Assembly: GCF_902506165.1 (NCBI RefSeq)
Contig: NZ_LR733817.1
Coordinates: 3,209,937-3,273,936, forward strand
From: Bosea sp. 29B
Lineage (GTDB): Bacteria; Pseudomonadota; Alphaproteobacteria; Rhizobiales; Beijerinckiaceae
Direction of reading: 5' to 3'
Length of the DNA: 64,000 nucleotides
Shown here: positions 20,532 to 64,000 of the stretch, one piece after another
Numbering within the stretch: position 1 is the stretch's first letter
Layout of the letters: every line of letters starts with the position of its first letter
The notes under the pieces: model-generated
What the model saw: the letters and a program-made list of their open reading frames with translations, nothing else
The model's database searches: none
What the model was told of the DNA's origin: nothing
Made by a program: the position numbers and the translations under genes

Positions 20532-20624
20532 GTCATGGTCGGGCTTGTCCCGACCATCCACGTCTTCCTTCGAGCAATGCGGCGGCCAAGACGCGGATGC
20601 TCGCCACAAGGGCGAGCATGACGG
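20532..20624. repeat. Double-hairpin intergenic element (copy 3, pair of 60018-60110)
   Basis: This 93-bp element has stem 1 ATGGTCGGG/CCCGACCAT (20535-20557) and stem 2 ATGCTCGCC/GGCGAGCAT (20597-20619). It starts GTCAT, and ATGAC closes stem 2. It is the same length as the copy at 60018-60110 and, by hand alignment, identical at about 83 of 93 positions. It lies between two convergent genes. Confidence 0.8.
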
Positions 20625-49675: not shown

Positions 49676-49878
49676 CGGACGGGGTGTTCCGGAGCTGTGT
49701 GTCGATGGCGGCGATGCCCTCCATCCATCCACGCCCCCGCGCAGTTCCCCGCCTGCCATCTCGGGGAGCGATGAGACCCATGTTCACGAACACCGTCCGC
49801 GCCGTCGCGCAGAGCTTGACGGCTGCGCGCCGACCCTTCTATCAGAAATGCAACATTGTTACATTAAAGGCTTGTCCC

Positions 49879-50916
49879 GTGCCGGCTACCCGCCATCTCG
49901 CCCGCCTGCTGCAAGGACCGGTTGCAGCGCTCCTCGGCACTCTGTTCGCGGGTGCCGCCTTGGCGGCGCCGACGCAATATCCGCTGACCCTCGAGAATTG
50001 CCGGGAGAGCGTGACTTTCAATGCACCGCCCAAGCGCGTCGTCGCGATCGGCCAGACCCAGACCGAGATCCTCTATGCGCTTGGCCTCGGCGACCGTGTC
50101 GTCGGCACCGCGGTCTGGTTCTCGCCGGTCGCCAAGCCCTATGAGGCGGTGAATGCCAAGGTGAAGCGTCTCGCCGACAACGATCCGAGCTTCGAGGCGG
50201 TGCTCGCCCAGGAGCCCGATCTCGTCACCGCGATGTTTGAATGGCATGTCGGGCCCAACGGCATCGTCGGCAAGCGCGATCAGTTCGCCAAGGTCAAGGT
50301 CCCGACCTATGTCTCGCCGACCGATTGCGTCGGCAAGGACAATTCCGGCGCCGGCGACGGCGTACGCACCCAGATGTTCACGATGGAGCTGGTCTATCGC
50401 AACATCCGCGAGTTCGGGCAGATTTTCGACGTCTCCGACCAGGCCGATGCGCTCATTGCCGAGCTCAAGGCTCGTGAAGACAAGGCGGTCCAGGCCGTGG
50501 CGAACGTCAAGGCCAAGGACGTGCCGGTCGTAGTCTGGTTCTCCAGCCGGGATATCAAGGGCGACGGCTTCATGGCCGGCAAGAACGGCGTGCCCGCCTA
50601 CATCCTGTCGAAGCTCGGCGCCCGCAACATCATCGCCACCAATGAGGAATGGCCGCTGGTCGGCTGGGAGAGCATCGCCGGCGCCAACCCTGCTGTGATC
50701 GTCACGGTGAAGATGGATCGCCGCCGCTTCCCGGCCGATGACATCGAGAAGAAGCTCGATTTCCTCAAGACCGATCCCGTCGCCAGCAAGCTCGATGCGG
50801 TGAAGAACCAGCGCGTCGTCATCCTCGACGTCGGCGCGACCCGCGCCGGGCTCGACACGGTCGACGGCATCGAGACGCTCGCCAAGGCGATCGCCGGCTT
50901 CGGCCTCGCTCCTTGA
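49879..50916 (+). CDS. ABC transporter substrate-binding protein (BtuF-like)
   Basis: From the GTG at 49879 this is a 345-residue protein with a good signal peptide (ATRHLARLLQGPVAALLGTLFAGAALA, cleavage before APTQYPL) and AAAGG 8 bp upstream. It has the type III metal-chelate/corrinoid receptor fold: KRVVAIGQTQTEILYALGLGDRVVGT, EAVLAQEPDLV, and a C-terminal RVVILDVG. In-frame ATGs at 49771 and 49780 would give a very long n-region. The B12 riboswitch upstream argues that the ligand is cobalamin or another corrinoid. Iron-siderophore receptors share the fold, so the ligand is inferred. Confidence 0.85.
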   Translation: MPATRHLARLLQGPVAALLGTLFAGAALAAPTQYPLTLENCRESVTFNAPPKRVVAIGQTQTEILYALGLGDRVVGTAVWFSPVAKPYEAVNAKVKRLADNDPSFEAVLAQEPDLVTAMFEWHVGPNGIVGKRDQFAKVKVPTYVSPTDCVGKDNSGAGDGVRTQMFTMELVYRNIREFGQIFDVSDQADALIAELKAREDKAVQAVANVKAKDVPVVVWFSSRDIKGDGFMAGKNGVPAYILSKLGARNIIATNEEWPLVGWESIAGANPAVIVTVKMDRRRFPADDIEKKLDFLKTDPVASKLDAVKNQRVVILDVGATRAGLDTVDGIETLAKAIAGFGLAP

Positions 50917-51956
50917 GCCACGCTGCCCACGGCCCGAACTGGCCGGCGCGGATCGCCATCGCGTTGGCCTCACTCGTCGCGCTCACCGTCTCGGTGGCGC
51001 TGGCGGTGACGATCGGCGAGATGCGCATTCCGTTCGACACAGCGCTGCGGGCGCTCGGCAACGGGCTGTTCAGCCTCGACTTTCCGGTCAGTGCGATCCA
51101 GCAGGGCGTGATCTTCGATTACCGGCTGAGCCGGGCGCTGATGGCTGGCCTGTGCGGCGGCGCGCTGGCGCTCTCGGGCGCGATCCTGCAGGCGCTGCTA
51201 CGCAACCCGCTGGCGGAGCCCTATGTCCTCGGCATTTCCGCCGGCGCCTCGACCGGCGCCGTCGCGGTGCTGATCCTCGGCGTCGGCATTGGCGGCACGG
51301 CGCTGAGCGTCTCGGCCGGGGCCTTCATCGGTTCCTGCGCCGCGCTCGCCGTGGTCGCGCTGCTGGCGACGGGGGCGGGCGGGGCGAGCGATCGCGTCAT
51401 CCTTGCCGGCGTCGCGACCTCGCAGCTCTTCAATGCCGCGACTGCGACGATCGTCACGACAATGGCCAGCGCCGAGCAGGCGCGCGGTGTGATGTTCTGG
51501 CTCTTGGGGAATTTCGGCGGCGTGCGCTGGCCGGATCTCTGGATCGCCGCGCCGGTCGCCTTCATCGGCTTCGGCATCTGCATGCTGCACGCCAAGGTGC
51601 TCGATGCCTTCGCCTTCGGCGTCGATGCCGCCGCCTCGCTCGGCGTCGCCGTCACAAGGGTGAAGGTCGTGCTCTTCGCCACCACCGCTGTGATGACCGC
51701 GGTGATGGTCTCGATCGTCGGCACGGTCGGCTTCGTCGGTTTGATCATTCCCCATGCCGCCCGCTTCCTCGTCGGCTCCGGCCACGCGCGATTGCTGCCG
51801 GCCTGCCTCGTCGTCGGCGCGATCTTCATGATCCTCGCCGACATCCTCTCGCGCGTGCTGATTCCGCAGCAAATCCTGCCGATCGGGGTAGTGACAGCGC
51901 TGTTCGGCGCGCCGGTCTTTGCCCTCATCCTCTATCGTGCGAGGCGGCCGGCATGA
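50913..51956 (+). CDS. FecCD/BtuC-type ABC permease
   Basis: A 347-residue permease with about ten membrane helices and the FecCD signature blocks. These are RLSRALMAGLCGGALALSGAILQALLRNPLAEPYVLGISAGAS, LAGVATSQLFNA, MFWLLGNFGGV and VGTVGFVGLIIPHAARFLVG. The start is TTG overlapping the upstream stop (TTGA), the only start consistent with coupling. With the binding protein and the ATPase it forms one importer under the cobalamin riboswitch. Confidence 0.92.
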   Translation: MSHAAHGPNWPARIAIALASLVALTVSVALAVTIGEMRIPFDTALRALGNGLFSLDFPVSAIQQGVIFDYRLSRALMAGLCGGALALSGAILQALLRNPLAEPYVLGISAGASTGAVAVLILGVGIGGTALSVSAGAFIGSCAALAVVALLATGAGGASDRVILAGVATSQLFNAATATIVTTMASAEQARGVMFWLLGNFGGVRWPDLWIAAPVAFIGFGICMLHAKVLDAFAFGVDAAASLGVAVTRVKVVLFATTAVMTAVMVSIVGTVGFVGLIIPHAARFLVGSGHARLLPACLVVGAIFMILADILSRVLIPQQILPIGVVTALFGAPVFALILYRARRPA

Positions 51957-52732
51957 CGCTCGCGATGCGTGAGGTGCGCTGGGGCGCTGCCGGCCGGATG
52001 ATCGTCGACGGGGTGACGCTGCAGGCGGCGCCTGGCCGGGTGCTCGGGCTGATCGGCCCGAACGGCTCGGGCAAGTCGAGCCTGTTGCGGTTGCTCTGCC
52101 GCTTGCGCAATGTCGCGAGCGGCGTCGTCACGCTCGACGAGCGCGATATCGCTGCCGTGCCACGGCGCGAGCTCGCCCGCCGTCTCGCCTTCGTCGAGCA
52201 GCAGGCGACCACCGAGATCCAGCTTTCCGTCTGCGATGTCGTCCGGCTCGGCCGCACGCCGCATCGCGCCGCGCTGGCATCCTGGAACGGCGCCGACGAG
52301 GTGGCAGTGAACGAGGCGCTGGCGCGGGTCGGGCTCACCGAACGGCACGACCAGTTCTGGCATACGCTGTCGGGCGGCGAGCGCCAGCGGGTCCATATCG
52401 CTCGCGCGCTGGCACAGGAGCCGAGCGAGCTGATCCTGGACGAGCCGACCAACCATCTCGACATCCAGCACCAGCTCTCGATCCTCGGCTTGGTCCGACG
52501 CCTCGGCATCACCTGCATCATGGCGCTGCACGATCTCAACCTCGCGGCGATGTTCTGCGACGAGATCGCGTTGCTGCACGAAGGGCGCTTGCAAGCCGCA
52601 GGGACGCCGGACGAGGTCCTGACCGCAGAGACGATCCAGCGCATTTTCGGCGTTGCGGTCTCGATCCGTCAGGGCGCGTCGGGACGCCGGCACATCGAGT
52701 ATCTGATCGAACCGGAACGGAGGCAGTCATGA
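51953..52732 (+). CDS. ABC importer ATP-binding protein (BtuD/FecE-type)
   Basis: A 259-residue ATPase with Walker A GPNGSGKSS, Q-loop FVEQQ, signature LSGGERQRVHIARALAQEP, Walker B LILDEPTNHLDI and the switch histidine in MALHDLNLA. It belongs to the FepC/BtuD group that serves chelate importers. The start overlaps the permease stop by 4 bp, and the methyltransferase start overlaps its own stop by 4 bp, so the four genes are coupled in series. Confidence 0.93.
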   Translation: MTLAMREVRWGAAGRMIVDGVTLQAAPGRVLGLIGPNGSGKSSLLRLLCRLRNVASGVVTLDERDIAAVPRRELARRLAFVEQQATTEIQLSVCDVVRLGRTPHRAALASWNGADEVAVNEALARVGLTERHDQFWHTLSGGERQRVHIARALAQEPSELILDEPTNHLDIQHQLSILGLVRRLGITCIMALHDLNLAAMFCDEIALLHEGRLQAAGTPDEVLTAETIQRIFGVAVSIRQGASGRRHIEYLIEPERRQS

Positions 52733-56121: not shown

Positions 56122-56955
56122 ATGACCAGCGCCATTGAAACAGGCGTGCCGGACGGACGCCTGCCGAAGCGCCAGCGCCATAAGGTGGCGCTGCGGCGCC
56201 TCGACGTCCTGCGCGTGACCGATCTCAGCCCGTCGATGCGCCGGGTGACCTTGGGCGGCCCGGAACTCGAGGGCTTCGTCAGCCTCGGCTTCGACGACCA
56301 TGTGAAGATGTTCTTCGCAGCGCCCGGCGAGACGAAGCCGGCCCTGCCGATCGTTGGCCCGGACGGGCTGGCCTTCCCTGAAAGCGGTCCGCGACCGCTG
56401 GCGCGCGACTTCACGCCGCGACGGCATGATCCGCAGGCGGGCGAGCTCGATATCGACTTTGCCCTGTTGCATGACGGGCCGGCCAGCAACTGGGCGGCGC
56501 AGGTCAAGCCGGGCGATCCCGCCTGGATCGCCGGCCCGCGTGGCTCCTTCATCGTTCCCTTCGATTTCGACTGGCATCTGCTCGTTGCCGACGAGACCGG
56601 GCTGCCCGCTCTGGCGCGGCGCCTGGAAGAGCTGCCACAGGGCAGCCGGGCGCTCGCTTTGGTCGAGGTCGGTGGAGCGGACGAGGAATATCCCCTGCGT
56701 CGCTCCGCCGGCATCGAGGTGGTCTGGGCTCATCGTGCCGCCGGGGCGCAACCCGGTGCGGCGCTGCTTGCGGCCCTGCCGGCCCTGGCCTTCCCCGATG
56801 GTGATTACTTCGCCTGGCTCGCCTGCGAATCCGGCGCCGCCAAGCAGTTGCGCGGCGTCCTGGTCGACGAGCGCGGCGCCAATCGCAAATGGGTCCGTGC
56901 CCACGGTTATTGGCGCCGCGGCGCCGTCGCCGTGCACGACGATTTCGACGAGTGA
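56122..56955 (+). CDS. Siderophore-interacting protein (FAD ferric-siderophore reductase)
   Basis: A 277-residue SIP/ViuB-family flavoprotein. The FAD-binding barrel has MRRVTLGGPELEGF, DDHVKMFF and the flavin motif ARDFTPRRHD. The C-terminal NAD(P)-binding part has SWAAQV-like and GPRGSFIVPFDFDWHLLVADETGLPA blocks. SIP proteins reduce imported ferric siderophores in the cytoplasm and release iron. The gene precedes the C-T-C NRPS gene by 53 bp on the same strand, so uptake and synthesis are probably co-expressed. Confidence 0.93.
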   Translation: MTSAIETGVPDGRLPKRQRHKVALRRLDVLRVTDLSPSMRRVTLGGPELEGFVSLGFDDHVKMFFAAPGETKPALPIVGPDGLAFPESGPRPLARDFTPRRHDPQAGELDIDFALLHDGPASNWAAQVKPGDPAWIAGPRGSFIVPFDFDWHLLVADETGLPALARRLEELPQGSRALALVEVGGADEEYPLRRSAGIEVVWAHRAAGAQPGAALLAALPALAFPDGDYFAWLACESGAAKQLRGVLVDERGANRKWVRAHGYWRRGAVAVHDDFDE

Positions 56956-57008: not shown

Positions 57009-59993
57009 ATGGCTGCCGACTTCGACCATGTGCTGACGCACGCCGAGCAGCGCCGCCTCGACGCCGCCTTGCAGAAACTTTCAGGGGCCGCGAGCCGAGG
57101 CGCGCCGTCGGCGCTGGCCCCGAGCGAATACGAGGAACATGTCTGGCTGGCGCAGCAGCAGGTTCCCGAGGCGGTTCTGAAGCATGTCGTCGCCTGCCGG
57201 CTGATCGGCGAGCCCGATCTGGCGCGCCTCGTCGGCGCGATCCGCGATCTCGTGCGCGCCTGGCCCGATCTGAACGCCCGTTTCCGCTTCAGCGAGGATG
57301 GCGAGCTGCATAAACGCTTCGCTGGCGACGAGGGGCGCGTCGTCAGCCTGATCCGGGCCGATACGCTGGAGCAGGCGATCGCGGCGATCCTCGACCGGCA
57401 GGCGGTGAGCTGGGACACCGATGGCGCGCCGCCTTTCGAGGTGCTCGTGATCAGCTGTCCGCAGGAGACGGTTCTGGCGCTGATCCTGCACCGCATCCTC
57501 GACGCGGCTCACCCCGCCGCGGAACTCCTGCTTGCACTTGGCAGGGCCTATGCTGGCGAGCCGGTCGTGCCTGCTACCTCCGCCGCCGTGAGGCGTGCGC
57601 CTGGGACGCCACTGCTCGCAGCGGGCGAAGCCTCGGCGATGCTGCCGGCCTGGATGCGCCGGAGCGGAAACGTTGCGGGTCTCGACATCGTCGATTTGGG
57701 CAATCTCCGTGCCCCGCGGTCCGAACGGGCGCTGGCCGGGCGATACGGCACCACGATCAGACTGGAAGCCCTGAACGGCCTCGCGCCGGATGCGTCTGAT
57801 CAGGAGGTTCTCGCCCACCTCGCTGCGCTGTTCGCCCGTTACCTGTCCGCTCTGTCCGGCAAGCGCGAGATCGATCTGCTGATTCCGAGCGGACCCACCG
57901 CGCAGCTCGGCGATCCCCCGTCATCCGTCGCGGGTGGAGACGCCGTCTTCCTGATCGTGGACGGACAGGCGCCGGCAGAGGCGATCGTTCCCGTGATTCG
58001 GGACGTGCTTGCCCGGACATCGAAAGCTTCGATGTCGCCGTGCCGCGCGGGGAGGGCAGAGCGGCCCATCCTGTTCGTCAACTGGCTTAGCGATCTCGCA
58101 GACAGCTTGCGGATGCCGGGGGTGTCGGTCGAACGGCTGCCGTTGCCGACCCTGGAGACGCGCCCCGATCTCGCCTTCGCCGTTGGACGCAGCAAGCAAG
58201 GCAACGTCGCGGTCGAGCTCGTGACGGGGCAGGGGCTCTCGCCGCTGATCGGCCCTGTCCTGCTGGAGCGCTTCCTGGCCTGGCTGAAGGAAGGCGAGGT
58301 CGCCTTGCCGGGCGCTTCATCGGCAATCGCCGTCGACAAGCCACACCGGGGAGGCGAGGTCGCAGCCGAAGAGCCGGCAACCGATGCCGTGGCTGCCCTC
58401 ATCCTCGCCGAGTTTCGCGCCGCGCTCGACGCGCCGGAGCTGGGGCCGGACGACGATTTCTTCGACCATGGCGGCCATTCGCTGATCGCGACCCGCATCA
58501 TCGGGCGCCTGCTCAGCCAGCACGGCATCGGGTTGCATTTCAACGACTTGTTCAGCTATCCGAGCGCCGCCGCGCTCGCGCTCAAGGCGCGTCGCACCGG
58601 CGAAGTGGCCCCGGAAACGTCGCGAGCTGCGCCGATCGAAGAGGCTCCGAGCGCGCCGCTGTCGCTGGCGCAGGCCTCGTTGTGGAAGGCTTATGCCGCC
58701 TTCGGCTTCAACGAGATCTTCAACCTGCCTTTCGCGCTCGACTTCCTCGAGCCGGTCGACGAAGCCCTGTACGGGCGCGCCTTCACCGATATCCTCGAAC
58801 GCCATCCCGGCCTGCGTAGCCTGTTCCGGCAGGAAGGCGAGGGCATGGTCCAGCAGGTCGTGCCGGCCGCCGAGCTGTCGCAATACAAGTGGTTCTGGAC
58901 GAGTGCCGAGAGCGTGGGCGTCGATCGCCGCGACGAGGCGCAGCACCATTTCGACCTGGCGAAGGAACTGCCCTTCCGCCTGCGCTTCCTGATCGACCCG
59001 GCGACGGGCCGGCAGGTGCTGTCCTTCCTGTTCCACCACGTGGTGCTCGACGAATGGTCGGTCAACCTGATGATGGACGAGATCGCCTATTGCTACCGCG
59101 TCCGTGCCGCCGGCGGCATGCCGGTCTGGTCGGATGCGCCGGCGCCGTTCCACGAATTCGCCCGGCTCCAGGATGCGGCTGGCGTCGATCAGACGCATCT
59201 CGGCTACTGGACCGATATGCTGCGCGGGGCGCCACAGCCGCAGCCGATCCTGCTGCGTCAGGATCGGGCCGAGCCTGCCGGCGAGGAGGCGTCCGCAGCC
59301 GGCGGCTGGGTCGAGTTCAAGCTCGGCCGGGAGGCGACGGAAGGGCTTTACGCCCTCGCCAAGCAGAGCAGCGCTTCGCTCTTCAACGTCGTCTATGCCG
59401 GCATCGCCGCTTCGCTGCGCCAGCTCGGCTCGCTCCCGGAACTGGTGGTTGGCACCTCGGCCTCGGGTCGCAGCGACGCCGCTTTCTTCGACACGGTCGG
59501 CTATTTCACCACCGTCGTCGCCCATCGCATCCGCTTCGATGAGACGATGAGCCTCGGCGGGCTGGTCGGCCAGGTCAGGAACCTGGTCAACGAGTCGCTG
59601 CCATCGAGCGAAATCCCGATCGACCTGGTCGAGGAGGCGCTCGGCATGACGCCGGGCCGTGATCATCTCTTCGAGGTCTTCATCCAGATCCACGCCAAGA
59701 ACAAGCTGAACGGCGAGCTGGCGCTGCCGGACGGGCGCAGCATCGCCTTCCGGCAGGTCGATCCCGAACGGCACGAATCGATGCTCGGCCTGCATTTCGA
59801 GGTGATGGAGGAGGTGGATCTTTCCGGCGAGCGCTCGATCCGCGTGCTGATGAGCTATCGCTCCGAGCACTACGGGCCGCAGGAGGTCGAGAAGATCACC
59901 GCGACGACCAGCGCGGTCTTCGCGCTGATGGGCCGGGCTGGCGGGGCGCAGGTGAAGCTGGCGGAGCTTGGCACGCATCTGCCGCACGGGTGA
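57009..59993 (+). CDS. NRPS, C-T-C (like the C-terminal half of VibF)
   Basis: A 994-residue protein without an adenylation domain. Residues 1 to about 430 are a degenerate condensation domain; its HHxxxDG site reads LHRILDA (His161 and Asp165 kept, first His and Gly lost). A carrier domain follows at about 455-540 with an intact attachment site DHGGHSL (Ser491). A second condensation domain (about 565-985) has HHVVLDE (His676, His677, Asp681; Glu in place of Gly). VibF of vibriobactin synthesis ends in exactly C1-PCP-C2, with C1 inactive, so I read this as the corresponding piece encoded on its own. It would hold the acyl-amino-acid intermediate and transfer it to an amine. Confidence 0.85.
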   Translation: MAADFDHVLTHAEQRRLDAALQKLSGAASRGAPSALAPSEYEEHVWLAQQQVPEAVLKHVVACRLIGEPDLARLVGAIRDLVRAWPDLNARFRFSEDGELHKRFAGDEGRVVSLIRADTLEQAIAAILDRQAVSWDTDGAPPFEVLVISCPQETVLALILHRILDAAHPAAELLLALGRAYAGEPVVPATSAAVRRAPGTPLLAAGEASAMLPAWMRRSGNVAGLDIVDLGNLRAPRSERALAGRYGTTIRLEALNGLAPDASDQEVLAHLAALFARYLSALSGKREIDLLIPSGPTAQLGDPPSSVAGGDAVFLIVDGQAPAEAIVPVIRDVLARTSKASMSPCRAGRAERPILFVNWLSDLADSLRMPGVSVERLPLPTLETRPDLAFAVGRSKQGNVAVELVTGQGLSPLIGPVLLERFLAWLKEGEVALPGASSAIAVDKPHRGGEVAAEEPATDAVAALILAEFRAALDAPELGPDDDFFDHGGHSLIATRIIGRLLSQHGIGLHFNDLFSYPSAAALALKARRTGEVAPETSRAAPIEEAPSAPLSLAQASLWKAYAAFGFNEIFNLPFALDFLEPVDEALYGRAFTDILERHPGLRSLFRQEGEGMVQQVVPAAELSQYKWFWTSAESVGVDRRDEAQHHFDLAKELPFRLRFLIDPATGRQVLSFLFHHVVLDEWSVNLMMDEIAYCYRVRAAGGMPVWSDAPAPFHEFARLQDAAGVDQTHLGYWTDMLRGAPQPQPILLRQDRAEPAGEEASAAGGWVEFKLGREATEGLYALAKQSSASLFNVVYAGIAASLRQLGSLPELVVGTSASGRSDAAFFDTVGYFTTVVAHRIRFDETMSLGGLVGQVRNLVNESLPSSEIPIDLVEEALGMTPGRDHLFEVFIQIHAKNKLNGELALPDGRSIAFRQVDPERHESMLGLHFEVMEEVDLSGERSIRVLMSYRSEHYGPQEVEKITATTSAVFALMGRAGGAQVKLAELGTHLPHG

Positions 59994-60017
59994 ACGTCCG
60001 CCAATGTCGCCATTTTC

Positions 60018-60110
60018 GTCATGGTCGGGCTTGTCCCGACCATCCACGTCTTCCTTCACCAGATGCGGTGTTCAAGACGTGGGTGCTCGCCACAAGGGCG
60101 AGCATGACGG
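60018..60110. repeat. Double-hairpin intergenic element (copy 4, pair of 20532-20624)
   Basis: 93 bp. Stem 1 ATGGTCGGG/CCCGACCAT (60021-60043) is identical to copy 3. Stem 2 pairs GTGCTCGCC with GGCGAGCAT (60083-60105), one G-T change relative to copy 3. It lies between the convergent C-T-C NRPS and VibH-like genes. Confidence 0.8.
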
Positions 60111-60121
60111 CACTGCCGCGC

Positions 60122-61489
60122 TCAGGCTAGGCTGAGCGCATCCTCCCGCTGCTCCGCCAAAAGCTCCGCGATCGGACGAGCCAGCGCCTCCGATGCGAGT
60201 GCCCGCGCGAGAAAGGCGGGCAACGCCTCGCCATGCCGTTCGAACGGCTCCCTCGCGAACATGGCCGGGTCGGCCGACATCGCGAAGGACAGCTCGCTGC
60301 CATCGTCCTCGCCGCGGAAGGTGAGGTCGATGCCCTCGCCCTGGCCGCTGCCCATGATCTCCCGCGTTACCTTGCAGCCGTGGAAGCTCGGGGCACTGAA
60401 GGGCAGCACATTGATCAGCGGCGAGAAGAAATAGCGGCTGCCCTCGGGCATGCCGTTGTCCATGGCCATCTGCTCGATCCGGTAGCGGCCATGGCGGCGC
60501 TGCGTCCGCAGCGTTGCGGTGTTCTCGCGCAGGACGTCTTCGAGGCTCTCCTCCGGCCCGAACGAGAGATGGAACGGCAAGATGTTGACGACCATGGCGG
60601 GCGTGTGGGCGGCGAGGCTGCCCCAGCGGCTCATGAAGGGCAGCCAGAAGGCCAGGACCTCGCGCCCGTCGATCCGTTGCCGCGGCAGGCTGCGCGAGAG
60701 ATAGAGTCCGGAGAGCAGCACCAACAGATCGGGCCAGCCGATGCCGGTCTCCTGAGAGAGACGGCGCAATCCGGCGCTCACATCCGCTGAGAGCGTGCCA
60801 TAAACTTCGTGCGGCGCTTCACCCGCCTGCTTGTCGCCGCGATGCAATACCGGCAGCGGAGCGTGCGCGGCGAACTCGTCCCGCCAATAGGCGCGGTCGC
60901 TCTCTTGCCGACGGCTGGCGCGATAGGCCTCTTCTTCCGCGATGAAGCTGGCGAAGGGATGGAAGGCCGGGCCGGCCTCACACCCAGTGAGGCGCTGCGA
61001 ATAAAGCTGGCCGCAGCGCTGCTCGATCAGCGTGAAGCCATAGCCGTCGAGGACGATGTGGTGGGCGCGGATATACCAGAGATAACGCCGCTCACCGACG
61101 CGCATGAGCCAGGTCGCAGCAAGGCCGGCGCCGCGCAGATCGAGCGGCGCCGCAACATCCGCCTCCATCCGCAGCCGCGCCTCCTGCAAGGGATCGGCAA
61201 CGCTCCTCAGGTCATATTGCTGGAGGACAGGCCGCAATTGCGGATCACAGCTCTGAAGCGGCGTCTCGTGGTCCTCTTCGACATGGAAGCGCACGCAAAG
61301 CGCGTCGGATTCGGCAATGGTCTGGGTGATGGCTGCGGCCAATGCCTGCTCGTCCGTGACGCCGTCGATGTCGAGGCAATGCGCGACGGTTGCGATCGGC
61401 TCGTCAGGATGGAAGGTGAACTCCTCCCAGAAATCGAGCTGCGGCAGGGTGAGCGGCATCAGGGCGCGGCGCGAATCGGCCTGCGACAT
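60122..61489 (-). CDS. Stand-alone condensation domain, VibH-like amide synthase
   Basis: A 455-residue single condensation domain with an intact site RAHHIVLDGYG (His143, His144, Asp148, Gly149). It has the VibH/EntF-type opening (LTLPQLDFWEEF, then AHCLDIDG), and later VibH-like blocks FWLPFMSRWGSLAAHTPAMVVN, HGRYRIEQ and the GEGIDLTFRG segment. VibH joins dihydroxybenzoate, held on an aryl carrier protein, directly to a polyamine (norspermidine). This predicts a catechol-polyamine siderophore such as agrobactin, vibriobactin or fluvibactin. It is 42 bp downstream of the Cy-A-T NRPS gene on the same strand. Confidence 0.88.
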   Translation of the reverse strand: MSQADSRRALMPLTLPQLDFWEEFTFHPDEPIATVAHCLDIDGVTDEQALAAAITQTIAESDALCVRFHVEEDHETPLQSCDPQLRPVLQQYDLRSVADPLQEARLRMEADVAAPLDLRGAGLAATWLMRVGERRYLWYIRAHHIVLDGYGFTLIEQRCGQLYSQRLTGCEAGPAFHPFASFIAEEEAYRASRRQESDRAYWRDEFAAHAPLPVLHRGDKQAGEAPHEVYGTLSADVSAGLRRLSQETGIGWPDLLVLLSGLYLSRSLPRQRIDGREVLAFWLPFMSRWGSLAAHTPAMVVNILPFHLSFGPEESLEDVLRENTATLRTQRRHGRYRIEQMAMDNGMPEGSRYFFSPLINVLPFSAPSFHGCKVTREIMGSGQGEGIDLTFRGEDDGSELSFAMSADPAMFAREPFERHGEALPAFLARALASEALARPIAELLAEQREDALSLA

Positions 61490-61531
61490 GGGAATCTCCT
61501 GTTCGGACGATGCTGGCGGCGGCGCGTTGCC

Positions 61532-64000
61532 TCACCGCTCCTGCTCGCGGAGCAGCAGCGCGACCTGCCCGGCATTGCGGCAGCGCAGCAGCTGATGCGG
61601 CGTCAGATCGGCGTTGAGCTCGGCGCGGATGCGGCTCGCTAGGGATTTGAGGTGGGATGGGAGCAGGCCGAGGCGGATGAAATCGGTGGTGTCGTCGATC
61701 TCCGGTGAAGCCGTTTGGCCGAGTACGGCGAGGTAGAGGTCGAGGATTTTGCGGCTGCGCGGGTTGGCTGGCGGTGCAGCCTTTGATACCGGCGGTTCGC
61801 GGCGTTCAGCGGCTGCAGCCGCGAGCAGCTCGCGGGCCTTGCGGCGATCGGGCTTGCCGTTCGCCGAAAGCGGCAGGGTCTCAACTTCGACGAAGCGGGT
61901 CGGGACATGCGACTCCGGCAACACGCGCCTTGCCTGGGCACGCAAGTCGGCGGCGCTCGGCTTGCCCGCTTGCGCCGGCACATAAACGACGCCGATCTCG
62001 GCCTCGCCGCGCTGCTCGACGCCGCAATCGACCACCAGCAATTGGTGGATCTCGGGATGGGCGCCGAGTTCCGCCTCGATGTCGGGCAGCGAGACGCGCA
62101 CGCCGCGAACCTTGACATAGCCATCGACCCGGCTGGCGAAGAGGATGTTGCCGTCATGGCGATAGCGGCCGCGATCGCCGGTGCGGAAGGCGCGCACCGG
62201 CTTGCCGGCTTCATCCGCGACGGTGACGAAATCGCTCTGGCCGAGCACGCCGTCCTGGAGATAGCCGAGCGCGACATTGACGCCGGCGGTGTGCATGCGC
62301 CCGACGACTTCGGGCGGGCAATGCTCGCCGCGCTCGTTGAGGATGAAATAGCGATTGCCCGGCAGCGGCCGGCCATAGGGGACCTGCCCGGTGTCCTCGG
62401 GACCGATCTCGTGCCAGATGCTCCAGATCGTCGTCTCGGTCGGCCCACCCAGCGAGACGAGGCGCAGCGCCGGATCGAGACGGCGCAGTTCGGCGATCAC
62501 CGCCGGCTTGATGTAGTCGCCGCCCTGGGCGATCAGCCTGAGCGAGCGCAGTTCGTCGCCGCGCCGGCAGGACAGCAGCATCTCCAGGATCGCCGGCACC
62601 GAACACCAGAGGCTGACCTTGTGCTCGGCGACGAGCCGGTTCCAGGCGATCGCATCCTTCTCTTCGCCCGGCGCCGGCTGGACCAGGGTCGCGCCCGCCG
62701 TCAGGCAGCCGAAGACGTCGAAGATCGACATGTCGTGATGCAGCGGCGTCACCGAGATGAAGACGTCGCTTTCGTCGGCCTGCCAGTTCTCCAGCGTGCG
62801 GCCGATGACGTTCGAGGTCGCGCGGTTCGAGAGCACCACGCATTTCGGCCGGCCGGTGGTGCCGGAGGTGTAGAGGTAATAGGCGGGCTCGTCGCTGGCC
62901 GAGAGCGTGTCCAGCGCCGGCAGCAACGCCAGCGGATCGGCTGGTGGCTCGCCCGCCAGCAGGGACTCGGGCGTCGCCGCCTCATGTCCTGTGACCGGGA
63001 CTGTCGATATCACCAGAGCCGGCCGGCAATTGGCGAGGAGATAGTCGAGCCGTTCCGGCGGTGAAGCCGCGTCGATCGGCACCCAGATCGCGCCGGAGAG
63101 CGCGCAGGCGAGTGTGATCGCGGTGTGCTCGGGCCCGCGCGGCAGGCAGATCGCGACGACATCGCCCTTGCCGACGCCGCGCTGCTGCAGCGCCGCCAGC
63201 GCCTTGCCCACATTCGTGCCGAGCTCGCCATAGGAGATCCGGCGGGCGCCTGAGATCAGGGCGATCTTGTCCTTGTCGCCGGCGAAGAGATTATCGGCGA
63301 TGCGTTGCAGGAAGCGGCTGCAGGCGAAATCGCTCTCCCAGCCGTTGAGCCGGTAGTGGCCGAGGTCGAGCATCTCGCCCCGCACGGTCTCGAAGGCGCC
63401 GCGTTCGCAGATCGCCGCGACCTGCCGGTCGAGCGCCGCGAGGATGTCGCGGATGATTCCGCGGTCGATCGCCTCGCGGGCATAGTCGATCTCGACGACG
63501 AGGTTGCCTTCTTCGTCGTCGCGGAAGCGGACATCGACAGCGACCTGCGGCGTCTGGGTCAGGCCGTCATGGCGGCGGATGCCGGCATCCTTCGCCAGTT
63601 TCGGCCAGCCGAGGCCGTTGGTGACGACGACAGGCAGGGCCGGCCCGCCGGGATGGGCGTTCATCAGGAGGCGGCTGATCTGGACGCCGGATTGCGAGAG
63701 ATGCTCCAGCCCCTCCAACACATCGCCTTGCAGGGCCTGCGCGCGCTCGCGGAAGCCGCCCTGTCGGGCATCCCAGTTGACGGCGATGAAGCTCGACCGG
63801 TTGGCGAGCTCGGCCGAGGCGGCGGGGGCGACGGGAATACCGATGCACAGCGCGCCTTCGCCCAGCCAATGCGACAGGGTTTCGAGAATGACGGCCGTCA
63901 CCGCCGTGTTCTTGAACAGGCGTTCCCTGGCGGCGAGGCGGCAGAGCGTAGTGAAACGCTCGCGGGCGATCGTCAGGCTCTCGCGCTCGTAGCGCGAGGC
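61532..64000 (-). CDS. NRPS, Cy-A-T (partial, like VibF N-terminal part/AngR)
   Basis: The frame is open to the right edge, so the N-terminus is missing; the GTG at 63901 is internal. The first part is the end of a heterocyclization-type condensation domain (FRERAQALQGDVLEGLEHLSQSGV, LPVVVTNGLGW). The adenylation domain follows: A3 YTSGTTGRPK, A5 GGPTETT, A7/A8 RTGDRGRYR and GYVKVRGVRV, A10 SANGKPDRRK. The last about 80 residues are a carrier domain reading DFIRLGLLPSHLKSL, where Pro aligns with the attachment Ser. Cy-A architecture implies oxazoline or thiazoline formation from Ser, Thr or Cys. By hand alignment the specificity residues are D-M-F-C-A-G-L-I-W, close to but not equal to Cys codes. 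Confidence 0.85.
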   Translation of the reverse strand, partial: ASRYERESLTIARERFTTLCRLAARERLFKNTAVTAVILETLSHWLGEGALCIGIPVAPAASAELANRSSFIAVNWDARQGGFRERAQALQGDVLEGLEHLSQSGVQISRLLMNAHPGGPALPVVVTNGLGWPKLAKDAGIRRHDGLTQTPQVAVDVRFRDDEEGNLVVEIDYAREAIDRGIIRDILAALDRQVAAICERGAFETVRGEMLDLGHYRLNGWESDFACSRFLQRIADNLFAGDKDKIALISGARRISYGELGTNVGKALAALQQRGVGKGDVVAICLPRGPEHTAITLACALSGAIWVPIDAASPPERLDYLLANCRPALVISTVPVTGHEAATPESLLAGEPPADPLALLPALDTLSASDEPAYYLYTSGTTGRPKCVVLSNRATSNVIGRTLENWQADESDVFISVTPLHHDMSIFDVFGCLTAGATLVQPAPGEEKDAIAWNRLVAEHKVSLWCSVPAILEMLLSCRRGDELRSLRLIAQGGDYIKPAVIAELRRLDPALRLVSLGGPTETTIWSIWHEIGPEDTGQVPYGRPLPGNRYFILNERGEHCPPEVVGRMHTAGVNVALGYLQDGVLGQSDFVTVADEAGKPVRAFRTGDRGRYRHDGNILFASRVDGYVKVRGVRVSLPDIEAELGAHPEIHQLLVVDCGVEQRGEAEIGVVYVPAQAGKPSAADLRAQARRVLPESHVPTRFVEVETLPLSANGKPDRRKARELLAAAAAERREPPVSKAAPPANPRSRKILDLYLAVLGQTASPEIDDTTDFIRLGLLPSHLKSLASRIRAELNADLTPHQLLRCRNAGQVALLLREQER

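Follow-up and report, generated by a model that had tools for sequence, protein, structure and literature searches.

Siderophore genes of the agrobactin type in a Bosea-group genome

Which siderophore would be made by a locus whose VibF-type parts lie in separate proteins on both strands, and is this division peculiar to it? The question concerns the right end of a 64,000-nucleotide stretch of DNA (the window, G000:C1:3209937-3273936) from the 6.33-Mb genome of a soil bacterium, placed in one genus group with Bosea lupini. The locus is a VibF/VibH-type catechol-oxazoline-polyamine cluster of a Bosea-group genome. More precisely, it is an agrobactin-type siderophore gene set, real and well formed, and an ordinary member of the agrobactin/serratiochelin kind. 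What makes it interesting is the missing entA and the homospermidine backbone predicted for its product, rather than the split into several proteins or their strands.

Proteins and domains of the locus

The VibF-type parts that a preliminary description had recognized in the window are present (Table 1), and a VibH-like gene and a repeat do lie between the two large proteins. The Cy domain that it named was confirmed. It counted only one, whereas the genome has two Cy domains with DxxxxD, in two proteins. It also proposed an extension to the right, where the DHB genes, the further Cy domain and a TonB receptor were found. Beyond the window edge, the separate Cy1 protein precedes Cy2-A-T*. The entC, entE, entB and PPTase genes diverge from the Cy1 gene, and an O-methyltransferase and the TonB receptor follow on the minus strand.

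Table 1. Features of the siderophore locus and its surroundings. Plain positions are those of the window; positions with L007 or L008 lie to the right of it.
Feature	Position	Strand	Remark
Binding protein, FecCD permease, ABC protein	49684..52732		
Siderophore-interacting FAD protein	56122..56955	+	relative in 23/79 related loci
C1-T-C2 protein, 994 aa	57009..59993	+	T and C2 by Pfam; C1 by family profile only
C1, degenerate condensation domain	57117..58328	+	LHRILDA in place of HHxxxDG
T, carrier domain	58404..58580	+	GGHSL, Ser491
C2, condensation domain	58653..59900	+	HHVVLDE
Imperfect inverted repeat, 45-nt arms	60008..60118	no strand	between convergent C1-T-C2 and VibH-like genes
VibH-like free-standing amide synthase, 455 aa	60122..61489	-	HHIVLDG
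Cy2-A-T* protein	61532..64000 (window part)	-	gene to L007:9609, window-equivalent 64672
T*, carrier-like domain without GGxS	61559..61750	-	GLLPSHL
A domain	61853..63280	-	code DMFCIQLIWK, predicted Thr
Cy1 protein	L007:9599-11200	-	
O-methyltransferase	L007:15737-16825	-	between PPTase and TonB receptor
Second periplasmic binding protein, two FecCD permeases	L008:7262-10340		right of the cluster

Among the six Condensation matches of the genome (E<=0.001, a search that would miss a domain as degenerate as C1), there is no complete Cy-A-C-T-C gene; all six lie in the siderophore locus and one PKS-NRPS locus near 5.05 Mb. The latter presents PKS-aminotransferase-NRPS genes with a thioesterase (L009:10617-19937). 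The O-methyltransferase is present in each of the four Bosea-group loci that were read to this point. Of the 79 related loci, L019 alone shows one, many of those stretches ending earlier. A 26-bp palindromic core of the inverted repeat is identical at 60023-60048 and 20537-20562 of the window.

The C1-T-C2 protein combines a degenerate C1, an intact T and HHxxxD in C2. Pfam finds no match in its own N-terminal 445 aa. Nevertheless, 6 of 14 relatives match Condensation (best 4.2e-14), and a profile of these 14 matches condensation-domain structures (best E 6.2e-14). We counted motifs over the 79 related loci and our own; the C1, Cy1, Cy2 and VibH figures are those of the commonest forms listed. 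For C1 (66 of 80 rows), the first His is present in 2, the second His in all 66, and the Asp in a minority. The window C1 is probably inactive, as in VibF; since it retains the second His and the Asp, this rests on the VibF analogy. The T domain carries GGHS in 80/80 loci. C2 shows HHxxxDE in 76 of 79 and QHLALDE in the other 3; its predicted role is release of the acyl chain to the polyamine.

Some relatives depart in size. Vibrio L064 and L068 have two and three successive carrier matches inside their C1-T-C2 proteins. The proteins of P0075, P0079, L051 and L060 are shorter (703-773 aa), and P0075 and P0079 are without much of C1 in the alignment.

The VibH-like protein is a free condensation enzyme with HHIxxDG. 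Its best PDB match is 1l5a (E 1.2e-69), listed as 'amide synthase', which we take to be VibH. The commonest forms listed for VibH, which cover 61 of 62 rows, keep HHxxxDG.

Counted from a GTG, the Cy2-A-T* protein measures 1086 aa; with an ATG as its start, which overlaps the Cy1 stop (ATGCGGGATGA), it measures 1046 aa. The commonest forms listed, which cover 50 of 61 rows for Cy1 and 58 of 63 for Cy2, keep DxxxxD. The A code, its positions placed after those of GrsA, differs at one position (I/V) from DMFCVQLIWK of Agrobacterium tumefaciens B6 and Serratia plymuthica. Photorhabdus asymbiotica and Vibrio xiamenensis have the identical code to Bosea. From the code, the A domain is predicted to use Thr, which would lead to an oxazoline. 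The catechol-oxazoline-polyamine type, as first proposed, is the predicted one; the thiazoline offered beside it is unlikely, because the code matches Thr-using relatives.

The T* domain scores 20.0 bits in Pfam, just below the 20.8 cut-off. At the site after the A domain, GGxS is absent in 65/65 loci, with one GGPS at the very end of a protein. A pattern search gives a Ser one place past the expected site (GLLPSHL) in 36 of 65; L056, not caught by the pattern, also has it. The remaining loci have Pro, Gln, Asn, Ala, Lys or other residues there. Since the residue varies, the off-by-one Ser is not a conserved attachment site, and modification of the window T* there is unlikely. On a carrier profile, T* is weak (median 2.9 bits over 65; best of 1300 shuffles 5.5). 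A profile-profile comparison of T* with T gives 86%.

An extra C-terminal stretch of 99-123 aa is present on 20/20 free Cy1 proteins and absent from the 41 fused ones, which show linkers of 0-29 aa between domain matches. The alpha- and gammaproteobacterial tails are homologous (97.3%, E 2.2e-11). We considered the tail as a new domain and rejected it, because PP-binding is matched in 7 of 17 members (best 2.7e-5); our own tail has no match. On a carrier profile, none of nine alphaproteobacterial tails rose above the best of 400 shuffles. In comparisons with T or T*, the alpha tails stay below 2%, and the gamma tails reach 18% and 33%. The Bosea tail (L007:9602-9895) is probably a carrier relic. 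This reading rests on its likeness to the gamma tails, because the alpha tails show no carrier signal by themselves.

The preliminary description held that the two proteins must dock for loading in trans. Loading of Thr in trans onto the T of C1-T-C2 is indeed to be expected, because the attachment motif occurs only in that carrier. Since T* lacks GGxS in every locus counted and T always has GGHS, loading in trans would be the rule of this family; it was already described for AngR/AngM and BasA/BasB. By this reading, loading in trans past a carrier whose attachment motif is missing is shared widely by alpha-, beta- and gammaproteobacteria. The two GGxS-less carrier relics perhaps persist as docking parts for it. 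The distances of Cy2-A are correlated with those of T-C2 (r 0.83, n=63, 0/999 permutations as high). This shows co-inheritance only, because EntE, no docking partner, correlates better with Cy2-A (r 0.95, n=30).

Arrangement among relatives

One scan of genome contigs with C1-T-C2 confirmed 105 stretches, and the best 80 of them supplied 79 named loci. Of the 80 loci read, including our own, the A protein was out of view in 14, leaving n=66. The two proteins lie on opposite strands in 48, on the same strand in 18, and are fused in none, in a set fetched by C1-T-C2 itself, where remote fused forms may be missed and Vibrio cholerae is outside. Alphaproteobacterial loci with both proteins in view have opposite strands in 28/37. 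The arrangement had been thought undescribed. This does not hold: strain B6 has the same order and strands, two C1-T-C2 relatives (one from a Bosea MAG) have the database name 'agrobactine synthetase subunit F', and schF1F2F3 has been described as a vibF homologue. A multi-protein layout on both strands is common in the VibF family, and calling it divided may reverse the history.

Within the order, 6 of 397 genomes, our own among them, have a C1-T-C2 match, and each of these lies in a frame of 998-1051 aa. The cluster's entB occurs in 5 of 67 Bosea genomes, again counting our own. Among 197 Vibrionaceae genomes there are 8 matches. Seven lie in frames of 722-1130 aa; the eighth (28% identity, T-C2 only) is inside a 5122-aa frame.

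Cy1 and Cy2 are fused in 41 of 63 rows, apart in 20, and cut by a contig end in 2. A separate Cy1 also occurs in A. vitis (L015), in four Roseibium/Labrenzia loci (L021, L023, L026, L030) and in Serratia. The Cy2-A tree, a quick search with no bootstrap and with long-branch warnings, places Bosea in one group of 18 rows with Agrobacterium, Rhizobium and Mesorhizobium (SH-aLRT 95). On it, the fused/apart label needs 4 changes, at least 3 of them forced by supported branches. Because the free Cy1 proteins have a common extra C-terminal domain, we infer that free Cy1 is one old state, repeatedly lost by fusion or passed on, rather than the result of many fissions.

DHB supply and the polyamine

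EntE scores above the DHB-AMP ligase cut-offs, and EntB consists of isochorismatase and carrier. The score of EntC is over the cut-off of the isochorismate synthase subfamily model (305 against 224.75 bits) and below those of the DhbC and EntC equivalogs. Salicylate as a substitute for DHB was considered and rejected. EntE has the DHB-type Ser (HNFLLSS, read by eye, with Ser where BasE has Ser247), and EntC fails the salicylate synthase model (102.7 of 325.15).

Canonical EntA, a usual companion of such clusters and not a defining part, is absent from the window's genome (TIGR04316: 71 SDR hits, best 170.7, cut-off 300 bits; 94/94 candidates scored). This absence speaks against the assembly line proposed below, which needs a supply of DHB. 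Among 30 other cluster genomes chosen from the 79, EntA is over the cut-off in 27, and Ruegeria reaches 284.9 bits. At E 1e-60, B. lupini and MAG L011 have none (61 scored of their 107 and 93 candidates). In Bosea, 2 of 5 cluster genomes have EntA over the cut-off, adjoining entB in both (33 candidates scored per genome). The order in Boseaceae BT-24-1 is entB-entA-PPTase. The PPTase gene directly follows entB in the window's genome (L007:15023-15045), B. lupini and MAG L011.

No remnant of entA lies in the gap before the PPTase gene, where 17 nt stand between the entB stop and a likely ATG. Nor did any of the 8 best SDR hits by TIGR04316 prove to be an EntA orthologue: in a tree that took in these 8 of the 71, all fell outside the 16 EntA rows, with support 100/100 and long-branch warnings.

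The dN/dS values of the window against B. lupini are 0.12 (entC), 0.07 (entE) and 0.10 (entB). Against MAG L011 they are 0.11, 0.10 and 0.14. In B. lupini and the MAG, the aligned stretches of the ten genes compared are free of stops. By these substitution ratios, entC, entE and entB are under purifying selection. Because the values are low, the pathway seems to be in use, and another source would supply the dehydrogenase step. The Bosea clusters without entA are a clean way to seek another enzyme that makes 2,3-dihydroxybenzoate.

We searched the genome for three polyamine families (nspC, speE, homospermidine synthase). There is no nspC match, and the one speE match has 21.8 bits against a cut-off of 249.55. 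A homospermidine synthase relative is at L110:1021-2454 (805 bits to 4plp). As it alone was found among the three families, the backbone is probably homospermidine. In 14 chosen cluster genomes, 10 have an nspC-family match, 6 of them over the cut-off, B6 included; Serratia plymuthica reaches 81.1 bits only. The family has no match in the three Bosea-group genomes and Labrys among these 14. Homospermidine occurs in rhodopetrobactin and methylolanthanin; among the papers that our literature search listed, there was no agrobactin-type siderophore with it.

Proposed assembly and known systems

We propose an agrobactin-type assembly line for a catechol siderophore, a 2-(2,3-dihydroxyphenyl)-5-methyloxazoline on a polyamine, with a probability of nearly 0.9. 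The reactions and their order are carried over from VibF, AngR/AngM and BasA/B/D; the gene content, domain motifs, GGxS absence, conservation and co-inheritance were observed here. EntC and EntB would make the DHB precursor, and EntE would load it onto the EntB carrier. The VibH-like enzyme would acylate the polyamine with DHB. The A domain would activate Thr and load it in trans onto the T of C1-T-C2. Then Cy2 would join DHB to Thr, Cy1 would close the oxazoline, and C2 would transfer the oxazoline chain to the acylated polyamine, while C1 would hold dimers. In this same explanation, two carrier-like domains, one behind A and one behind Cy1, would be vestigial. A VibF/AngR-like route is the best reading because the Bosea proteins have the matching parts.

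An AngR-like line would use Cys and deliver a thiazoline siderophore. AngR does share a Ser-less carrier after A (PMC6836290). Nevertheless, the Bosea A code is one position away from those of B6 and S. plymuthica, the cluster has a VibH homologue, and its Cy2 retains both Asp, whereas the AngR Cy reportedly lacks the first; a Cys-using line is thus very improbable. We judge just as improbable a recent fission of a VibF-like gene in the Bosea lineage. In Vibrio cholerae, VibF is a single protein of six domains (PMC5577590), yet none of the 66 loci has C1-T-C2 fused to the A protein, all but one of the Vibrionaceae matches lie in frames of 722-1130 aa, and free Cy1 proteins of distant lineages have a homologous C-terminal domain.

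A decaying cluster that makes no siderophore, entA being gone, is slightly less improbable. The window's genome, B. lupini and one MAG do lack canonical entA; against decay stand the aligned genes free of stops and the dN/dS values of 0.07-0.14. A further reading, for a clade within Bosea, is tentative, at somewhat less than even odds. This clade would make an agrobactin analogue on homospermidine, and its DHB would come from an enzyme that is no orthologue of EntA, or from an extracellular source. Here, entA would have been removed between entB and the PPTase gene, with the rest of the pathway under selection, and the two GGxS-less carrier relics may be docking parts.

Among known systems, vibriobactin VibF/VibH resembles Bosea in having two Cy, A, two C, one carrier, a non-catalytic C1 and a free VibH. 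VibF differs in being a single Cy, Cy, A, C, PCP, C chain. According to PMC5577590, its Cy2 condenses, Cy1 cyclises, C2 transfers to DHB-polyamine, and the non-catalytic C1 aids dimers. In anguibactin and acinetobactin, the carrier loaded by the A protein is described as part of a different protein. Further sources for the comparison of siderophores were PMC5635690, PMC4145622 and PMC11317620. AngR/AngM/AngN thus share with Bosea the Ser-less carrier after A and a working carrier in another protein, although in Bosea a Ser one place off remains. Anguibactin differs in Cys, thiazoline, N-hydroxyhistamine and an AngR Cy minus one Asp. In acinetobactin, BasA loads Thr on the BasB carrier, as proposed for Bosea, and BasD has two Cy. 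It differs in its N-hydroxyhistamine acceptor, and the available text of PMC12005286 does not mention VibH for it.

Serratiochelin schF1F2F3 and SchH are described as vibF and vibH homologues. S. plymuthica L038 has Cy1, Cy2-A-T* and C1-T-C2 as three proteins, as in Bosea, matching the SchF1/SchF2/SchF3 division; which name belongs to which protein we infer. Serratiochelin differs in having DHB genes in another cluster and diaminopropane or putrescine (PMC7962358). The same paper of 2021 states that the agrobactin amide synthase was still to be identified, and agrobactin contains spermidine (PMC7857480).

A. tumefaciens B6 (L025) is arranged like Bosea: C1-T-C2 on the forward strand, VibH-like and Cy1-Cy2-A-T* on the reverse, then entC, entE and entB forward. 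We take B6 to be the strain from which agrobactin came. Its VibH-like gene (L025:13135-14502) is a plain candidate for the agrobactin amide synthase. Bosea proteins are 65% (A-T*) and 48% (C1-T-C2) identical to those of B6. Cy1 is fused to Cy2-A-T* in B6 and separate in Bosea. Finally, entA and an nspC-family gene are present in B6 and missing from the window's genome, and from its polyamine genes a product other than agrobactin is predicted.
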